The notes under the pieces are model-generated. The model had not been told where the DNA came from. It searched no databases and saw only the letters and a list, made by a program, of their open reading frames with translations. A program made the position numbers and the translations under genes. Shown in pieces: positions 28,065 to 41,638 of a DNA stretch of 55,473 bases. The stretch is from Candidatus Berkelbacteria bacterium Licking1014_7 (GTDB lineage Bacteria > Patescibacteriota > UBA1384 > GWA2-35-9 > CG2-30-39-44), in the NCBI GenBank assembly GCA_007376535.1, contig VMGK01000001.1, positions 1 through 55,473 on the forward strand, read 5' to 3'. The stretch's first letter is position 1; every line of letters begins with the position of its first letter.

Positions 28065-28466
28065 TTAGAAATCTATCAATTCTGCAACAAAATCAAAAAC
28101 TCTCCGAGCATTATTGTACGCCTGCTTGGCTTGCTTCAGGGTAATTTCAGATTGTTTTATTCCGGGATACCGCGACCCGACATAATAATCAGTTAGGACA
28201 AAAATTTCTTTTTTAACCAGCGTAATGTCCGACCCCGTTTTATTCGCCAGTTGATAAAGTTTCGTTAAATCGTGTTCTTTGGGGTATGAATTGGCACTAT
28301 AAAGCAACAACGCTTTTAATATTTTCTCTACTGCTTGCTGGCAATGAAAACCGGCAGCCCAGCCCGGCGCCTTTGCCGTCAATATTGCTTCAGCGGCAAT
28401 TAAATCGCCTTCTGCTTTTGCAATCCATTCTTTAATTTCTTCCTGATAATGATGGGTTTTTCTCAT
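28065..28466 (-). CDS. HEPN-domain protein of an MNT/HEPN module (copy 1)
   Basis: The 133-aa helical protein carries HEPN features: AEGDLIAAEAIL near the start, then AGFHCQQAVEKILKALLLY, KEHDLTKLYQLA and YYVGSRYPG. HEPN proteins are commonly RNases or toxins; in MNT/HEPN pairs the nucleotidyltransferase can inactivate the HEPN partner by adding nucleotides. The classical RX4-6H motif is not obvious, so nuclease activity is uncertain. Its start overlaps the end of the MNT gene by 35 bp. Confidence 0.85.
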   Translation of the reverse strand: MRKTHHYQEEIKEWIAKAEGDLIAAEAILTAKAPGWAAGFHCQQAVEKILKALLLYSANSYPKEHDLTKLYQLANKTGSDITLVKKEIFVLTDYYVGSRYPGIKQSEITLKQAKQAYNNARRVFDFVAELIDF

Positions 28467-28770
28467 ATAATGTTTTACCTTTTGATAAAACTGTTTCTAT
28501 AAAATAATTTGGAGTTTGTAATTCTTGTGGCGTATAAACCATAATGTCAACTCCCCGCGAAGGGTAGTTGACAATTTTCTTTCTAACCGTGGTCATTCTG
28601 TCAAAAAATTTCTCTCTGGTATTTTTAATAATAAAAAGATCGTAATCGCTATTTTTGTTAGGCTTTCCCATAGTAAAAGAACCGAATAAAATAATCTTTT
28701 CGGGCTTATATCCTTTGACAATTTGATCGGTAATAGATTTGAGTTCTGGATTGACTTTGGGTGATTTCAT
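28432..28770 (-). CDS. MNT-domain nucleotidyltransferase (copy 1)
   Basis: The 112-aa minimal nucleotidyltransferase has the pol-beta signature IILFGSFTMGKPNKNSDYDL (GSx10DxD, about residues 24-43) and a later acidic residue in VDIMVYTP. It pairs with the HEPN gene overlapping its 3' end, as in antitoxin/toxin modules. It starts at ATG with AT-rich codons like the chromosomal backbone, in contrast to the GC-rich unit divergently transcribed next to it. Confidence 0.9.
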   Translation of the reverse strand: MKSPKVNPELKSITDQIVKGYKPEKIILFGSFTMGKPNKNSDYDLFIIKNTREKFFDRMTTVRKKIVNYPSRGVDIMVYTPQELQTPNYFIETVLSKGKTLYEKNPSLSGRN

Positions 28771-33952: not shown

Positions 33953-34360
33953 TTATTTTAACTTATTTTTAACTTTTTTAATAATTTTCTCCGCAATGGC
34001 TAATGCTTTTTCCGCGTCTTTTTTGGTATGAAATTCAAAATAAGCATCTGGATATCGGGTTTCAAAATAACAACCAGACAACCATTTAATGCTTCTAATA
34101 TCAATATTGATTTTTTCTCCGTTTTTGCGCAGAAGACTCAGCAATTGAGCTAGATCGTGTGTTTTGGTGAATTTTATTTCTTTGTGTGTTAGCCAACCCT
34201 TAAAATATTTTTCAACCGCTTGCTGGCTATGAAAGCAAGCATTATTAAATAATTTCGTTTGCGTCAAATAACCAGCGGATTTTAAATCTTCCTCGGCAAA
34301 TAATATCCATTCTTTAACGAATTGTTGTTTTGTTTTTTTCATAAATAGTTTGACCTTCAT
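33953..34360 (-). CDS. HEPN-domain protein of an MNT/HEPN module (copy 2)
   Basis: The 135-aa helical protein has HEPN features: AEEDLKSAGYL, NACFHSQQAVEKYFKGWL, KTHDLAQLLSLL and CYFETRYPDAYFEF. It overlaps the MNT gene by 47 bp. It is clearly related to the HEPN protein at 28065-28466 but diverged. As there, an RX4-6H active site is not evident, so enzymatic activity is uncertain. Confidence 0.87.
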   Translation of the reverse strand: MKVKLFMKKTKQQFVKEWILFAEEDLKSAGYLTQTKLFNNACFHSQQAVEKYFKGWLTHKEIKFTKTHDLAQLLSLLRKNGEKINIDIRSIKWLSGCYFETRYPDAYFEFHTKKDAEKALAIAEKIIKKVKNKLK

Positions 34361-34667
34361 CTAATGCTTCGCGTAAAAAAAACATCCATTTAGGCACATC
34401 TGAGACCTCTTCTGGTGAATAAACGCGAGGTTCTATTCCGTAAATATCTCGTAGTTTAACAAGCACTTGGTAGACCCTTTGATGCGGACGCACTTTATCC
34501 ACTCCTTTTTTAATAATCAAAAGATCTATGTCGCTATCCTCGTTAAAATCGCCGTGGGCGACCGAGCCGTAGAGAATGATTTTTTCCGGATCGTAGTATT
34601 TGGCGAGGCGTGCCACCGCTTTTTTTATCTTGGCGTCAAATTGTTTTTTAAGGGCTGACCTAGTCAT
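34314..34667 (-). CDS. MNT-domain nucleotidyltransferase (copy 2)
   Basis: The 117-aa protein has the nucleotidyltransferase signature KIILYGSVAHGDFNEDSDID (GSxxxG...DxD, about residues 29-48) and begins MTRSALKKQFDAKIKKAVAR. Partner of the overlapping HEPN gene. The module is transcribed away from GC-rich unit C, as copy 1 is from unit B. Confidence 0.92.
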   Translation of the reverse strand: MTRSALKKQFDAKIKKAVARLAKYYDPEKIILYGSVAHGDFNEDSDIDLLIIKKGVDKVRPHQRVYQVLVKLRDIYGIEPRVYSPEEVSDVPKWMFFLREALDEGQTIYEKNKTTIR

Positions 34668-34742: not shown

Positions 34743-34771
34743 TTGACTTTTTGTCAATTGTGTGGTATGAT
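34743..34771 (+). promoter_or_regulatory. Sigma-70 promoter of GC-rich unit C
   Basis: TTGACT at 34743-34748, TATGAT at 34766-34771, 17-bp spacer. Immediately downstream is a nested hairpin (about 34797-34829, GCCTC/GAGGC outside CGGC/GCCG). Confidence 0.8.
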
Positions 34772-34842
34772 TGCAATCTAAAAGTTTAAATCTCAAATTG
34801 CCTCATCGGCAATCGCCGTAGAGGCGATCTCAAAATTAAGGA

Positions 34843-34936
34843 ACAGATAATTGGTTTTATTCCAGCGCTGTCATTCCTGAGTCGAATGAAATTTACTATC
34901 AGGAATCCATGCAATCAAGCCAGATATTTGTTTCTT
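34843..34936 (+). promoter_or_regulatory. Conserved palindromic leader element (unit C)
   Basis: About 94 nt that match 37195-37289 at most positions. The inner stem ATTCCTGA/TCAGGAAT differs from the unit D stem ATTCCCGA/TCGGGAAT by a compensatory pair. Outer arms TGGTTTTATT/AATCAAGCCA also pair. Either a structured 5' UTR or a palindromic repeat. Confidence 0.65.
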
Positions 34937-34967: not shown

Positions 34968-35306
34968 ATGCAGAAGACCCAGACCATCGAAAACCCCCAG
35001 ACCAACTGGGAAGGGTGGGTCGCTTACCTCGCCAGCGCGATCAACGCGCTGGTAGAGGAAAATGAGGGGCGATTCTCCGCCATCGAGGCGGAGAACAGCG
35101 AGCTCCGCGAAGAGATCGCGGAGCTGAAAGGACGCCCCGAGCTCACGAAGGAGGCGCACGATCGCCTCCACCGCGAGCACTCCCGCGAGATGCGGGAGAA
35201 AAGGGAGACAGAGGAAAGCGCCCCCACCCACCCCGCCTCCGACCCAGCCCTGCCTCAGCCCAGCACGGCGATCGAGGCGCCCCCCCTCCCTGAATACCTG
35301 CAGTAA
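34968..35306 (+). CDS. Coiled-coil protein with C-terminal LPEYLQ tag (unit C)
   Basis: The 112-aa protein follows a strong AAGGAGGAAGG site. The N-terminal 20 residues contain two Trp (NWEGWVAYLA). Residues about 25-55 form a heptad-like acidic coiled coil (ENSELREEIAELKG), then a highly charged helix (about 60-83). The last 30 residues are a Pro/Ala/Ser linker that ends in P-P-L-P-E-Y-L-Q at the stop. That ending resembles the ends of the unit D proteins. No signal peptide, so probably cytoplasmic. Codons are strongly GC-ending. Function unknown. Confidence 0.78.
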   Translation: MQKTQTIENPQTNWEGWVAYLASAINALVEENEGRFSAIEAENSELREEIAELKGRPELTKEAHDRLHREHSREMREKRETEESAPTHPASDPALPQPSTAIEAPPLPEYLQ

Positions 35307-35330
35307 GGAGGGACTGTTCGCGCCAACTTG

Positions 35331-35378
35331 CGCCAGTTATGTGTCTCGCACACACATAGCTGGCGCGTTTTTTTTTAA
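35331..35378 (+). terminator. Terminator of GC-rich unit C
   Basis: CGCCAGTTATGTGT pairs with ACACATAGCTGGCG (one G-U), followed by CG and a long T-run. A classic intrinsic terminator. Confidence 0.9.
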
Positions 35379-35402
35379 AATTATATACCGCTGTTTTTTA
35401 TC

Positions 35403-35433
35403 AAAAAACCCGCGTCCCATTTCTGGTAGCGGG
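35403..35433 (-). terminator. Likely terminator of the RNase J-like gene
   Basis: On the minus strand, ACCCGC and GCGGGT pair and are followed by TTTTTT. It lies 23 bp beyond the stop at 35456. Confidence 0.65.
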
Positions 35434-35455
35434 TAATAAAACAAAACATCACACA

Positions 35456-36847
35456 TTAAGAATCCAAGCCCAACATTGTTGTTGGCTGAAAATAGTTAAC
35501 CCCCAAAGAATCAAGGAATCGCCCAAGCGCGCCTTGTTTCCCTATGGGCACATGGTATGGAATTACAAATTCTGGTTTAGCAAGCTGGAGCAACAACTTA
35601 ATATCTAGCTGGCTTCCGTGCCCAGAATTATGGATATTTGCCTGCGCAAACACATTCTCCGGCGGATTTGTCCCTAAGGCGCGATAGGTGCTAGGTGAAA
35701 CCACCGCATAGCCCTCCGAGCAGATAGCAGACAAACGACGCACCATTTCAACGACTGGCGCTTCGTTGCCGGGTATGATCTCACTAGACAGAATAATAGA
35801 AGCTTCCTTATGAAGGCGTAATCGCTGGCTTTCACCCAGCGAAGCTAATGTCAACACTGCGTATGGCTCGGCTTGCGATCCTGTGCAGGCAATCAGTTCA
35901 GATCCAAACCCCAAATACTCTCCATCAAACAGCTCAAGAGATTCTCCAATCCCCCAAACCGTTTCCATGGCAGTGCCTTTGGGATGAAACGAACCAATAC
36001 CCAGATCGCGCGCCTTTTTACCAATCATTTGCCAACGCTCAAGATTGGAAGCAAAACCAGATACGATAATCTGCTTCGCTCCTTTTACAAGCAAACGACC
36101 CAACACTTTGCCAACAGTGCTAACCGTCTCGTCCTCTGATTGGGTATAACCAGGGCGATCGCAGTAAAGCATATCAGCAATCACAATATCAAACGGTCTC
36201 TCAGCGCACAGCACATCAACCATCACCTGCGCCATTTGAGAGCCACCGTAATTCTCCTGCAATCGAAAATCACTCATAAACAGCACCTTAAACCACTTGT
36301 CACCCGAAAGCTTAACCTTAATGATAAAGCTCTTAGTCCCGGGGATAGAGTGAGGCACTGTAAAGCTAGTTACCTTAACAAGGTTGCTCAAACTCACGCT
36401 CGAGCACAACCCTTCAAGCTTGGCTATCTGGGGAAACTCTTGCTCGTTATACTCAAACATCGCCTCTGTCATTTTCTCACCAAATGGTGATAGATGAAGT
36501 ATCGGCAAATTATCGTCCCCAACTACTTCGCGCGCCATAGCGTAAAACTCTGGCAACGCTCCTGCATGGTCAAGGTGGCTATGGGTAATAAACAGATGCT
36601 TGATTTTGTGGAGAATATCCTTGAGCGAGTCAAGGTAATGACTACTCGATTTTGATACATGGGCTTCTTGGTCGACGATTGCGTCTTCTGCCCCTAAACT
36701 ACCGGGGGCTTTTCCGCAATCAATCTCGATCCAAAAATCCTCTTGCTTAAAATGAATCGGAAAACAATTGCGCCCAACTTCACGCAAACCTCCAAGGCAA
36801 GAAATACTCAAACAAGGATTGCTAAAAAGTCTATGATGCTTATGCAC
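35456..36847 (-). CDS. RNase J-like metallo-beta-lactamase/beta-CASP ribonuclease
   Basis: The 463-aa protein starts at GTG (36847), 7 nt after GGGAGG. It has the metallo-beta-lactamase motif THSHLDHAG (about residues 86-93), the metal aspartate in LFMSDFRL, and beta-CASP motifs FASNLERW, ACTGSQAEPYAVL and SSEIIPGNE. Late histidines are in HNSGHGSQ and PYH. These are RNase J signatures, but it is about 90 residues shorter than typical RNase J and lacks the C-terminal domain. It may be a specialised paralogue for RNA processing. It sits between GC-rich units C and D, which share a structured leader. Any functional link is speculation. Confidence 0.82.
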   Translation of the reverse strand: MHKHHRLFSNPCLSISCLGGLREVGRNCFPIHFKQEDFWIEIDCGKAPGSLGAEDAIVDQEAHVSKSSSHYLDSLKDILHKIKHLFITHSHLDHAGALPEFYAMAREVVGDDNLPILHLSPFGEKMTEAMFEYNEQEFPQIAKLEGLCSSVSLSNLVKVTSFTVPHSIPGTKSFIIKVKLSGDKWFKVLFMSDFRLQENYGGSQMAQVMVDVLCAERPFDIVIADMLYCDRPGYTQSEDETVSTVGKVLGRLLVKGAKQIIVSGFASNLERWQMIGKKARDLGIGSFHPKGTAMETVWGIGESLELFDGEYLGFGSELIACTGSQAEPYAVLTLASLGESQRLRLHKEASIILSSEIIPGNEAPVVEMVRRLSAICSEGYAVVSPSTYRALGTNPPENVFAQANIHNSGHGSQLDIKLLLQLAKPEFVIPYHVPIGKQGALGRFLDSLGVNYFQPTTMLGLDS

Positions 36848-36886
36848 TTTGGTTCCTCCCTTTTTTCGCAAGTTGTCAAAGATCAG

Positions 36887-36915
36887 TATTAAACTGAAAT
36901 AAGAAAGCTTGTTAA
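36887..36915 (-). promoter_or_regulatory. Possible promoter of the RNase J-like gene
   Basis: On the minus strand, TTAACA (36910-36915) and TTAATA (36887-36892) are 17 bp apart. The -35 abuts the MITE at 36916, so insertion of that element may have shaped this promoter. Confidence 0.4.
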
Positions 36916-37076
36916 GAGCTTGTCTGATAACTGCTCTTGAAGCGAAAATGAAATTATTTTAGGCGAAAAAGGAAAATTATGAGGAAAGGTAGCTAATGCT
37001 ACCTTGACGACTAATTTTCATTTTAGAGCCAAAATTAATCATTTGTAGCTATCAGATGTAGTTATTAGACAAGCTC
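36916..37076. mobile_element. Foldback MITE, copy 1 (161 bp)
   Basis: Terminal inverted repeats GAGCTTGTCTGATAACT / AGTTATTAGACAAGCTC are flanked by a TAA duplication (36913-36915, 37077-37079). The two halves are imperfect complements along their length, with a central GGTAGC-TAAT-GCTACC hairpin. No coding capacity. Closely matches 37291-37451. Confidence 0.88.
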
Positions 37077-37143
37077 TAAAGCCCTTTATATTTTAGTTTA
37101 AATTTTGAATAATTTTGAGATTGTAATAAATATACCATATCCC

Positions 37144-37172
37144 TTGACAAATGTCAATATCTATGATATAAT
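37144..37172 (+). promoter_or_regulatory. Consensus sigma-70 promoter of GC-rich unit D
   Basis: TTGACA at 37144-37149 and TATAAT at 37167-37172, both perfect, with a 17-bp spacer. The strongest-looking promoter in the window. Confidence 0.9.
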
Positions 37173-37194
37173 CCTAACTTAAAGTAAAAACAGA

Positions 37195-37289
37195 AACAGA
37201 TACTTGGTTTTATTCCATCGCCGTCATTCCCGAATCGAATAAAATTCGCTATCGGGAATCCATATAATCAAGCTAACTATTTGTTTCTT
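37195..37289 (+). promoter_or_regulatory. Conserved palindromic leader element (unit D)
   Basis: Partner of 34843-34936: same ends (AACAGATA ... TTTGTTTCTT), same palindromic plan and a compensatory change in the central stem. It starts about 22 nt after the -10. A MITE has inserted at its 3' end. Confidence 0.65.
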
Positions 37290-37290
37290 A

Positions 37291-37451
37291 GAGCCTGTCT
37301 AATAACTGCTCTTGAAGCGAGAATAAGATTATTTTAGGCGAAAAAGATAAATTATGAGGAAAGGTAGCTAAAGCTACATTGACGAGTAATTCATCTTTTG
37401 TAGCCAAAATAAGCTATTTACAGCTATCAGATGTAGTTATTAGACAGGCTC
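37291..37451. mobile_element. Foldback MITE, copy 2 (161 bp), inside unit D leader
   Basis: Same length and ends as copy 1 (GAGCCTGTCTAATAACT / AGTTATTAGACAGGCTC). The right-end change is mirrored by the left (CCTG/CAGG instead of CTTG/CAAG). Flanks are TTA and TTG, an imperfect 3-bp duplication. It separates the promoter and leader element from the unit D genes, so it should be transcribed as a long hairpin. Confidence 0.88.
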
Positions 37452-37518
37452 TTGCACATTGACAACTTGACAGCAAAACGCTTCGCAAAATCTGCCAAAA
37501 CCAAAGGAGGAAAATCCA

Positions 37519-38211
37519 ATGGCAGACGAATCCACAGGTACCGCAGAAGCCATCCCAGAGGGTGGTGAGGACACAAAGGTCGAGGTCGAGGACGTTGGCG
37601 AAAGCCAGACGCCCGAGACCGAGACAGACAACGAGCAGGGCGGGAAGACCGAAGAGGTCGTTGACCCTATGCCCACAGCCCTCGCCGACCTCGCGGACGA
37701 AGCGCTCCGCGCGCTCATCCACGAGATCGCATCAGATGTCGCCCTTGAAGCCCTTACGGGCTTTGGGGAAGACATAGACAAGACAACCAAGCGGATGGAT
37801 GAGGCGCGTCAAGCGCTACTCATTGAAATCCGCACCGGACGCGAGGCGTCCGAAGCCGAGGTTGTGGCTGGCGCTGCCAGCATCGTTGACAACCTCGGCA
37901 AAAGCGTTGCCCGGACCCAGTCTAGCGTGCCCGAACTCCGGGCAGAGCTGGTAAGGTCCGAGCAGGGGCTGCGCCGGGAGATCGAGGAGCTCCGAGAGGG
38001 AATGAAGTACCTCAACGACGAGCTCCAGCTCTGGAAGGGAACGGCGCAAAATCTGGCGCGGATCCTCGAAGCCCGCAAGGTGCTTCAGGAACTCCAGCCC
38101 CAGCCTGCCCCGACCCCAACCAAGACGTCCGCAAGCCCGGTATCCGCCCCGACCCAGCCCGAACCCCGGTCCGCACCCGACCTGCCCGACTTCTTACGGG
38201 ATGTGAGGTGA
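37519..38211 (+). CDS. Coiled-coil protein with C-terminal LPDFLRDVR tag (unit D gene 1)
   Basis: The 230-aa protein follows AAAGGAGG. The first 55 residues are very acidic and probably disordered. Residues about 60-185 are almost wholly helical (ADLADEALRALIHEIASDVA, ELRREL-type heptads, REEIEELREGM-like), suggesting a rod or oligomer. Residues about 190-222 are a Pro/Thr/Ser linker, and the protein ends A-P-D-L-P-D-F-L-R-D-V-R. No signal peptide or membrane helix. Strong GC-ending codon bias. First gene of the operon; no family recognised. Confidence 0.8.
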   Translation: MADESTGTAEAIPEGGEDTKVEVEDVGESQTPETETDNEQGGKTEEVVDPMPTALADLADEALRALIHEIASDVALEALTGFGEDIDKTTKRMDEARQALLIEIRTGREASEAEVVAGAASIVDNLGKSVARTQSSVPELRAELVRSEQGLRREIEELREGMKYLNDELQLWKGTAQNLARILEARKVLQELQPQPAPTPTKTSASPVSAPTQPEPRSAPDLPDFLRDVR

Positions 38212-38217
38212 GCCCCA

Positions 38218-38889
38218 GTGGCAAACCCCACATTCTTTGAAAGGATCGGCTTTGGGGAGGTGATAAGGGAGCAAAAGCAGAGAGAGGTTGAAAACGAGCT
38301 TTACGCTCGCAAGATTCAACCCCACCCTACTGCCCGTGCGCCCCAGCCCCCTCCCCAACAAACCAAACCAGTTCGCCTGCGAGGATCAGCGGAGAAAGTT
38401 TTCCGCGAGGTCTTCAAAAGCGAACCCGGCTGGAGAGGCAAACCTAACCCCAAAACCCTTCCGCTGGACATTTTGTTCGGACCAGTTCCGAGCAACCGTT
38501 ATAGCGCGAGAAATGGGGAAGGGCGTTCCCCTCGTCCTCAGGCAACTGAGGGTGTGGTGGAGTTTCGCAACTGGATCCCCGGTCACCGGGGAAAAGTTGT
38601 GATTCATCGCGAACAGCTTTCTGGCGAAGAGTACGCAAGTGCTCTTGCCGAAGCTAAAGCGATCTGGGCTTGCCCAGAGCTCCATCACAAGTACGAGGGT
38701 AAGCTGGTGTCACATCGGCAACCAGCCCCAGCACCGCCAACTTTGCCCGAATGGCTTCGCATTTCTGCGTCGGCTATCCAGCCGGCAATAGAAGCAACAT
38801 CGCAGCCACAAAGGCTAACCTCCCAGATCTTGGAGCTATGCCCAAAGCTCCTTGATTTTCGACTCGCAATGGGCAGAAAAGGTTCCTGA
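38218..38889 (+). CDS. Hypothetical protein with internal LPEWLR motif (unit D gene 2)
   Basis: The 223-aa protein starts at GTG, 6 bp after gene 1, with GAGGTGAG as ribosome binding site within the end of gene 1. A helical N terminus (FFERIGFGEVIREQKQREVE) is followed by a Pro-rich linker, a mixed domain (about 55-160) with EFRNWIPGHRGKVVIHREQL, then a Pro linker and P-P-T-L-P-E-W-L-R-I-S at about residues 168-178. About 45 further residues follow. The motif is internal here, unlike in its neighbours, so the tail may be an added segment. Bias to GC codons is weaker. Confidence 0.72.
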   Translation: MANPTFFERIGFGEVIREQKQREVENELYARKIQPHPTARAPQPPPQQTKPVRLRGSAEKVFREVFKSEPGWRGKPNPKTLPLDILFGPVPSNRYSARNGEGRSPRPQATEGVVEFRNWIPGHRGKVVIHREQLSGEEYASALAEAKAIWACPELHHKYEGKLVSHRQPAPAPPTLPEWLRISASAIQPAIEATSQPQRLTSQILELCPKLLDFRLAMGRKGS

Positions 38890-38941
38890 TTACCCTTGTT
38901 CCCAAAATCAGAATCCATTCCCCGAGGAGGGAAAACAGACC

Positions 38942-39727
38942 ATGAACCCCGTAATCACCGCCTTTCAGGCGGTCGTAAAGTACCTCTTCGCCCAAGGTGA
39001 AGAGGCGATCAGCCAGACCATCGAACTGGCAAAGAGCCAGTTCGATGCCATCACCAGCGCGCTTGCCCAAAAGACCGGGCAGGAGCTGGCGAATGTCGCT
39101 AGCGCGCTCCAAGCAATGGTCGAAGTGGAATACACCTCGATCGGGGCGTTTTGCCAAGCGGTCGAGGCAAAGATTCTGGCGAGCGCGGGAGCAACCATCC
39201 CCGCCTTCCTCGCCACCGCCCCGACCCCGACCCAAACCCCCCAGCCCAGTGCCCCCCCCACTCCGGACCAGATCACCACTGTCAAGGCGTTGGTCCGCGC
39301 CGGCGCGGACGCTGACGAAGCGTTTCGCGTCGTCTTGGGGCGGAACCAGGACGGCACCGAATGGGTGCCAACTGGCAAGCCCGGCGAGTGGGCGAAAGCC
39401 CGCCAGCTCGCCTATGGGATGACGATCATCTTGTCGATGAAGGAGGAGGAGCCCGAGGCGCTAAAATGGCTCCACCACTTTCACGACAAGACCAAGGAGG
39501 CTATCCTGCACACTGCCAAAGAGGCAGAATCGGTGCAGGACTGGCGGGAACGTCTCGTTCGGCAGTACGCGGGCGCTGTTCGCGCCCGCAAAGCGAATGA
39601 GACCGTAGTCGCGATCGGAGCGCAGTGGGGGTTCGACATCGACCTCCACACCATCGCCGACAAAGGGGAAGAAGGAGCGGAGGAAAACGGCACCACCACA
39701 GTGCCAGACTTCCTCCGTCGCTCCTAG
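38942..39727 (+). CDS. Helical protein with C-terminal VPDFLRRS tag (unit D gene 3)
   Basis: The 261-aa protein starts at ATG after GAGGAGGG; upstream in-frame codons run back through gene 2's end and are rejected. An N-terminal helical domain (about 1-85, TAFQAVVKYLFAQGEEAISQ) leads into a Pro/Thr linker (about 90-110), then a second domain (about 112-245) with Trp-rich helices (DWRERLVRQYAGAVRARKA). It ends T-T-T-V-P-D-F-L-R-R-S. A similar T-I-P-A-F-L-A sits just before the Pro linker (about 84-90). Soluble; unknown function. Confidence 0.78.
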   Translation: MNPVITAFQAVVKYLFAQGEEAISQTIELAKSQFDAITSALAQKTGQELANVASALQAMVEVEYTSIGAFCQAVEAKILASAGATIPAFLATAPTPTQTPQPSAPPTPDQITTVKALVRAGADADEAFRVVLGRNQDGTEWVPTGKPGEWAKARQLAYGMTIILSMKEEEPEALKWLHHFHDKTKEAILHTAKEAESVQDWRERLVRQYAGAVRARKANETVVAIGAQWGFDIDLHTIADKGEEGAEENGTTTVPDFLRRS

Positions 39728-40023: not shown

Positions 40024-40052
40024 TTGACAAACGGATAAAAATATGGTACAAT
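40024..40052 (+). promoter_or_regulatory. Sigma-70 promoter of GC-rich unit E
   Basis: TTGACA at 40024-40029, TACAAT at 40047-40052, 17-bp spacer. Leader of about 35 nt. Confidence 0.85.
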
Positions 40053-40093
40053 TCAAATGTCTCAAAATCAAGAAGAAAGGTTGATGATTCGAA

Positions 40094-40546
40094 ATGTCCG
40101 AAGAGAAAGTTCGTTTTGTCCCGGCGCTCGTCGAGGCGGAGATTACCCGCCTCGGAGTGCACGATTACGGCTACGGAGACGTAGCCGTAATCGTAGAAGG
40201 GTCCCCCGATTTCCCCGACCCTGAGGTCGGGGACCAGCTGTACCTCCTTGACGGGGTAGTAATACCCGTCAAGGAATCGGGGATGCAGGTTGGGGATCGC
40301 GCCGTCATCGGCGTGATACCCAACAAAAATCCCGACGCGCCCCAGCGATTCGTCGGGATCTTCCTCCAGCGGGAGGAACTGGAGGAACCTGCTACCGCCA
40401 CCCCTGCAACCCGGCGCCTCGCCATCGAGGTTGAGGCGCCGACAGAACTCCTGCGGGACGCCAGCCGCTGGCTGGCAGACGCGCTGGCGGAGTTCGGCGA
40501 GAAGTTTCCGGAGGCGACCGCAAACCTCCGGATCCTGCCCGCCTAG
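40094..40546 (+). CDS. Hypothetical acidic protein (GC-rich unit E)
   Basis: The 150-aa protein begins MSEEKVRFVPALVEAEITRL. The first 100 residues look like a small beta-barrel (VGDQLYLLDGVVIPV, VGDRAVIGVI). After a short Ala/Thr/Pro linker, the last 40 residues are a helix (LLRDASRWLADALAEFGEKF). AGAAAGG lies 13 nt upstream of this ATG. Another ATG 10 nt upstream is closer to it but opens an incoherent frame. It lacks the LP-D/E-F-L ending of units C and D. No family recognised. Confidence 0.72.
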   Translation: MSEEKVRFVPALVEAEITRLGVHDYGYGDVAVIVEGSPDFPDPEVGDQLYLLDGVVIPVKESGMQVGDRAVIGVIPNKNPDAPQRFVGIFLQREELEEPATATPATRRLAIEVEAPTELLRDASRWLADALAEFGEKFPEATANLRILPA

Positions 40547-40806: not shown

Positions 40807-41034
40807 ATGAAACCAAACCAAAAATTTATCTGGGACTATGACGCCCAGTCGCTTGATCTAAAAAATCCGCAGGTTTTAAAATGGTATCTCGCGCGCAAAG
40901 TTAATTTTGGCGATTGGCAGTCAATTGACCATAATTTACTTAAAAAATATCTATCCCAACTTGATATTGACCCAACCTTAAAAAAAATGCTTAAAAAATA
41001 TTATGCTTACCAAGCCACAAAAACTCGCTCTTAA
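40807..41034 (+). CDS. Antitoxin-like protein paired with AbiEii
   Basis: The 75-aa protein, starting MKPNQKFIWDYDAQSLDLKN, has the DUF6922-like arrangement: FIWD near the start, then VLKWYLARKVNFGDW. Genes of this kind precede AbiEii-like nucleotidyltransferases and are thought to act as antitoxin. Its 3' end overlaps the toxin start by 32 bp, supporting co-translation. Family call is from memory of the pattern. Confidence 0.75.
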   Translation: MKPNQKFIWDYDAQSLDLKNPQVLKWYLARKVNFGDWQSIDHNLLKKYLSQLDIDPTLKKMLKKYYAYQATKTRS

Positions 41035-41638
41035 AATAATTTTTGACTCTAATCTGGCTAAAATCAGCGCTTGGGGCGGCGGGACCGCGCTATCAGAAGT
41101 GTATTTGCATCATCGTCGATCTAGCGATATAGATATAATTCTGTCTCAAATGCCACCATTAAGCGATCTAACTTTATTAGTTAAACAAATAAAATCTGCG
41201 CTCAGGGCAGGCAAGGTTATCTCTTATTCTAAAATGAATCGTTTTCAATATGTGTTTATTAGCGCAAAAACACAATTGAAACTTGAATTTGTTTTTTATC
41301 CTTTTGTAAAATTGAGCAGAATTAAACGGTGGGGAAATGTACGGGTGGAATCGCTTTTTGATATGGCTGCGTCTAAAACCTTGGCGAGTTATCAACGCCA
41401 TGAGCCAAAAGACACGGTAGATATGTATTTTTTGCTAAAAGATAAATTCCCCCTTGCCAAGTTGGTTAAGGGGGTTGAGAAAAAATTCGGCGAGACAATT
41501 GACGCGGCCCATTTGCTGGCAAAATTGACTGATAATTTAGAAAAGTGCCTGGCAATAAAACCGTTGCTGTATAAAAAATTTGATAAAAAAACCGTTGAAA
41601 AATTCTTTCAGCAAGAATTTAATCAATTAAAGTTCTAA
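41003..41638 (+). CDS. AbiEii-family nucleotidyltransferase toxin
   Basis: The 211-aa protein has the AbiEii/AbiGii signature AWGGGTALSEVYLHHRRSSD followed by IDIIL (about residues 20-45), a GSx10DxD-type nucleotidyltransferase site in the variant common to this family. Later motifs include VRVESLFDMAASKTLASYQR and DTVDMYFLL. Members form type IV toxin-antitoxin systems and some modify tRNA 3' ends. The gene overlaps its probable antitoxin and lies between unit E and the secretion cluster. Confidence 0.9.
   Translation: MLTKPQKLALKIIFDSNLAKISAWGGGTALSEVYLHHRRSSDIDIILSQMPPLSDLTLLVKQIKSALRAGKVISYSKMNRFQYVFISAKTQLKLEFVFYPFVKLSRIKRWGNVRVESLFDMAASKTLASYQRHEPKDTVDMYFLLKDKFPLAKLVKGVEKKFGETIDAAHLLAKLTDNLEKCLAIKPLLYKKFDKKTVEKFFQQEFNQLKF

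Follow-up and report, generated by a model that had tools for sequence, protein, structure and literature searches.

In this work, we consider why several proteins encoded close to each other in the genome of Candidatus Berkelbacteria bacterium Licking1014_7 carry the same six-residue peptide, [LV]-P-[DE]-[FYW]-L-[RQ] (the strict motif), at or near their C termini, and what such a tag could serve for. The window, meaning the whole analysed stretch of 55,473 nucleotides, is contig C33 of this 806,358-base genome (41 contigs). The contigs were taken as stretches with 879 ORF-based predicted genes (229,481 residues); because these genes are simply the longest non-overlapping ORFs, a crude set, the motif counts given below are approximate. 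An 800-kb stretch of a second genome of the same class (G034; 240,474 residues) was used as a control.

The tag occurs in two transcription-unit-like arrangements, C and D, with all features on the forward strand. Unit C is composed of a near-consensus sigma-70-type promoter-like site (34743..34771; TTGACT-17-TATGAT, extended -10), a 98-bp leader forming a long hairpin (34839..34936; z -4.6), a single gene and a terminator-like hairpin with a 16-pair stem and a T run (35329..35376). Gene C (34968..35306; GC3 0.83), preceded by a strong Shine-Dalgarno sequence, codes for 112 amino acids with a coiled-coil-like body, a Pro-rich linker and the tag. In unit D, a promoter-like site of perfect consensus (37144..37172; TTGACA-17-TATAAT, extended -10) is followed by the same kind of 98-bp leader with a long hairpin (37192..37289; z -6.5), an inverted-repeat element of approximately 163 bp and the genes D1 (37519..38211; 230 amino acids), D2 (38218..38889; 223 amino acids, GTG start, GC3 only 0.53) and D3 (38942..39727; 261 amino acids, ATG after a good Shine-Dalgarno sequence), the last two without a family. 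The claim that the leader is limited to these units held, with just two copies genome-wide, 84.7% identical and without an Rfam match. Because the leader is found only at these two genome sites, the tag-bearing units probably have a control element in common. Between the two copies, C:G is changed to T:A on each side of the inner stem. The inverted-repeat (MITE-like) element is present at 36916-37077 and 37290-37452, both before D1, and further copies lie on contigs C3 and C17.

Re-reading of the sequence placed all four motifs where the sequence-only reading had named them. LPEYLQ (35286..35303) occupies residues 107-112 of the 112 in C, i.e. the exact C terminus; LPDFLR of D1 (38182..38199; residues 222-227 of 230) stands in the context D-L-P-D-F-L-R and is followed by DVR and the stop; VPDFLR of D3 (39701..39718; residues 254-259 of 261) is followed by RS and the stop. 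The tag-like LPEWLR of D2 (38743..38760; residues 176-181 of 223) is internal, with 42 residues after it and not the 45 reported before. Read in the +1 frame, D2 ends (38743-38795) with ...PNGFAFLRRLSSRQ-stop, again an FLRR-like sequence near a stop, which may be a coincidence or a sign that the present tail of D2 is secondary.

A Pro-rich linker stands immediately before the tag in C and D1 (low-complexity) and, in a shorter form, in D2, as had been described; in D3 the Pro-rich stretch lies earlier, the tag is preceded by an acidic Gly/Thr stretch, and the 30 residues before it contain no proline. The description of the proteins as otherwise unrelated is correct in general. The exception is the pair C and D1, which have linker and tag in common (E 0.004 across their last 25 residues). 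Only weak coiled-coil-type matches were obtained for the tagged proteins with Pfam, PHROG and PADLOC. A single-sequence model of D1 predicts long helices at residues 51-105 and 112-192, a coil linker (193-223) and a short helix (224-229) over the tag, with low-to-moderate confidence in the tail (pLDDT ~58). D3 is predicted to be helical with very low confidence, its AlphaFold model being uninformative (pLDDT 45).

GC3 of the tagged-unit genes ranges from 0.53 to 0.83, and the genome median is 0.39, a difference that foreign DNA would be expected to show. Pairs of MNT/HEPN toxin-antitoxin type (28065-28770 and 33953-34667) and an AbiEii-type gene (41003-41638) surround the GC-rich units, which gives the region the look of an accessory island. 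Unit E (40024-40546) has a near-consensus promoter-like site (TTGACA-17-TACAAT) and a GC-rich ORFan of 150 amino acids with neither tag nor leader. Other GC-rich ORFan genes of the genome are found at C8:34974-35933, C22:7166-8089, C39:2302-2640 and C41:22436-22774, several of them with AAGGAGG Shine-Dalgarno sites; the proteins of C39 and C41 seem to be paralogues of each other, and those of C8, C22 and C39 gave no Pfam match.

A likeness that had not been pointed out before is that the tag resembles the P-x-aromatic-[LI]-R core of the FtsZ C-terminal peptide. The FtsZ of the host (C21:13013-14122) ends with EEEEDEIEVPAFIRRKLK, EVPAFIRRKLK being at its C terminus. The tails of FtsZ are nearly invariant in the class: of 23 that were read, 22 have [LIF][DE][VI]P[AT]FIRRKL[KR] after a disordered linker. 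An FtsZ-type pattern, [ILV]P.[FYW][LIM][RKQ] within the last 15 residues, matched four proteins of this genome (FtsZ, C, D1 and D3), and FtsZ alone in the control G034. The background rate predicts ~0.2 non-FtsZ matches per genome versus the 3 observed (Poisson 0.001), a figure that is indicative only because the pattern classes (the aromatic set and Q) were widened after the tags had been seen. When only R/K was permitted at the last position, with any residue before P, C was lost from the matches. The narrower core P-x-aromatic-[LI]-[RK] within the last ~15 residues is present in D1 and D3; C has Q, and the D2 copy is internal. Before the hydrophobic-P core, an acidic residue is found in D1 only and is missing in C, D2 and D3. 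In FtsZ C-terminal peptides, the D before the core is fully conserved in the species compared (PMC9939409); in the present class this position is E or D. As the upstream acidic residue is restricted to D1, the tags were not filed as members of the FtsZ-tail motif; they look like it and may work like it. No Pfam match to the FtsZ/tubulin GTPase core was obtained for C, D1, D2 or D3. SSB-tail and sortase-type motifs were dropped from consideration, their core and position being different.

FtsA, to which FtsZ tails usually dock, was identified in the genome near FtsZ (C21:15259-16503) and SepF was looked for there and not found; FtsA is the sole hub for FtsZ tails recognised from the sequence of this genome. 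Between ftsZ and ftsA, the suspected partners of the tag, there is a patch of high GC content in which no clear gene is seen (C21:14301-15100). In E. coli, the tail peptide KEPDYLDIPAFLRKQAD binds FtsA, and subdomain 2B of FtsA is the place where FtsZ tails are bound (PMC9098913). Our main reading, to which we give a probability of roughly 0.4, is that the tag would be a docking peptide of the kind represented by the FtsZ C terminus, carried by helical island proteins and with FtsA as its putative receptor. C, D1 and D3 (perhaps also D2) would provide helical or coiled-coil bodies, and a disordered linker rich in Pro would connect these to the tag in the case of C and D1; the tag core P-x-aromatic-L-R/Q would most likely fill the FtsZ-tail pocket of FtsA, and the bound tag would either bring an assembly encoded by the island to the site of division or be a competitor of FtsZ for FtsA. 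From what is seen directly, i.e. the sequence, position, rarity and codon divergence of the tag, the shared leader, the promoter-like sites, and the presence of FtsA and FtsZ with SepF undetected, we infer a peptide-level function, FtsA binding and an effect on division. Extended to the whole locus, the tentative picture is that of a mobile, GC-rich and strongly expressed CPR island in which unrelated helical proteins may bear FtsZ-tail mimics, so that a foreign assembly would be addressed to the host FtsA or would compete for it.

Only somewhat less probable is that the peptide is a genuine docking signal with another partner, such as an island protein (e.g. that of unit E, 40094-40546), an unfoldase of the ClpX type or a secretion apparatus, and that its resemblance to FtsZ is incidental. 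All tagged proteins are encoded inside one 4.8-kb island with common control elements, PrgI and TraG/VirB4-type genes lie ~5 kb downstream, and ClpX, too, recognises the FtsZ tail (PMC4835091). However, the sequence does not tell which partner this would be, and the core agrees with FtsZ at P, the aromatic residue, L/I and R, FtsZ being the only other carrier.

Another explanation, which we hold to be unlikely, is chance: Pro-, Ala- and charged-residue-rich tails of GC-rich ORFan genes could coincide in a pattern of six residues that was drawn up only afterwards. In the genome (879 predicted genes, an approximate set), the strict motif was matched five times; four of the matches are those of C, D1, D2 and D3, and the fifth, VPEYLR on contig C7, is internal. 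Within the last 15 residues it occurs only in C, D1 and D3 among the predicted proteins, and it is absent from the control G034 (0 matches), so that it is essentially confined to the tagged proteins. Chance controls on the three tails were run post hoc, with the best shared 6-mer as the score. The value obtained for the three tails, 68, was reached by none of 20,000 tail shuffles and by none of 40,000 random gene triples of the genome's C termini. The harshest control shuffled the nine GC-rich tails of the window, which are Pro/Ala-rich, and scored the best triple out of 84; here 1.2% reached the same score, and this speaks for coincidence, together with the internal position of one copy in four, the linker that C and D1 also have in common and the lack of any orthologue found. 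As the motif was defined after looking, a cautious estimate of chance for the tails by themselves is ~1%. On the other hand, L, F/Y/W and R of the tag are not the residues enriched in the linkers. A C-terminal frequency no higher than chance, which the sequence-only reading had held to count against a shared tag, was not what the genome controls and G034 gave. The tag is real and unusual inside this genome.

The codons of the tag are a separate argument. Listed in the order C/D1/D2/D3, they are ctc/ctg/ttg/gtg and cct/ccc/ccc/cca for positions 1 and 2, gaa/gac/gaa/gac and tac/ttc/tgg/ttc for positions 3 and 4, and ctg/tta/ctt/ctc and cag/cgg/cgc/cgt for positions 5 and 6. Across the four genes there are three synonymous codons for L at position 1, three for P, four for L at position 5 and three for R, with no synonymous variation at the D, E and F codons. 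The differing codons at L, P, L and R argue against a recent DNA copy and fit a conserved or converged peptide.

So far the tag is known from one genome. No believable relative was found for D3 in samples of the order, class and phylum, for D1 and C in 380 genomes of the phylum, for D2 and D3 in GTDB contigs, or for the tagged proteins in IMG/VR, phages and plasmids (not every protein in every collection). Two weak matches were rejected as homologues, one in G039 that spans a low-complexity stretch and one in G197 with stops in its frame. At the DNA level, the pattern hydrophobic-P-[DE]-F-[LF]-[RS]-[RS] was matched 75 times in the 380 phylum genomes, and besides D3 none of these matches convincingly represented a tag at the C terminus of a real gene; weak candidates were L163 (a 140-codon frame with the end LPEFLRRYVGYR) and L164 (FPEFFRRIINY). 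In the genomes sampled, the tag is hence not widespread in CPR.

A tagged-cargo or encapsulation system, in which the same peptide on different proteins would load them into a shell, is very improbable, since no shell or encapsulin was recognised among the proteins of units A-E, and in the tagged proteins, which are coiled-coil or helical, no enzyme domain was recognised. The sequence-only reading had seen correctly that helical proteins of different kinds carry one short peptide at the C terminus, above chance in this genome, with the anatomy of a docking peptide and limited to the units that share the leader; its suggestion of cargo loading was not supported, as no partner of the shell or encapsulin type was recognised among the proteins looked at and the motif resembles the FtsZ peptide core instead.

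The docking tail of FtsZ is usually regarded as private to FtsZ. If the main reading is true, this tail can serve unrelated island proteins as a copied address label, and a handle is obtained on the role of GC-rich ORFan islands in CPR genomes. The hypothesis comes down to a single peptide-binding assay.

Compared with the FtsZ C-terminal peptide (CTP/CCTP), which docks to FtsA, ZipA, SepF, ZapD and others, the tag is likewise a short C-terminal peptide with the core [IVL]-P-x-aromatic-[LI]-R and few residues after it. The FtsZ peptide usually follows a disordered linker, and the tags of C and D1 follow a Pro-rich one; in complexes, the FtsZ tail forms a helical segment beginning at the conserved proline (PMC4835091), and the D1 model has a short helix over the tag. 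In contrast to FtsZ, the tags sit on helical non-FtsZ ORFan proteins, they have D/E after the proline where the host FtsZ tail reads PAFIRRKLK, their tails diverge from that of FtsZ after R, and C ends in Q instead of R. Like T7 Gp0.4, lambda Kil and CbtA, which are phage or toxin proteins, the tagged proteins would be encoded by foreign or accessory genes and act on the division apparatus. Those three proteins bind or perturb FtsZ and are not known to copy its tail. A precedent for one C-terminal motif on unrelated proteins addressed to one division hub is the single recognition motif for GpsB in S. aureus FtsZ and PBP4, which differs from the tag in sequence, (S/T/N)-R-x-x-R-(R/K), and in its hub (PMC11062636).
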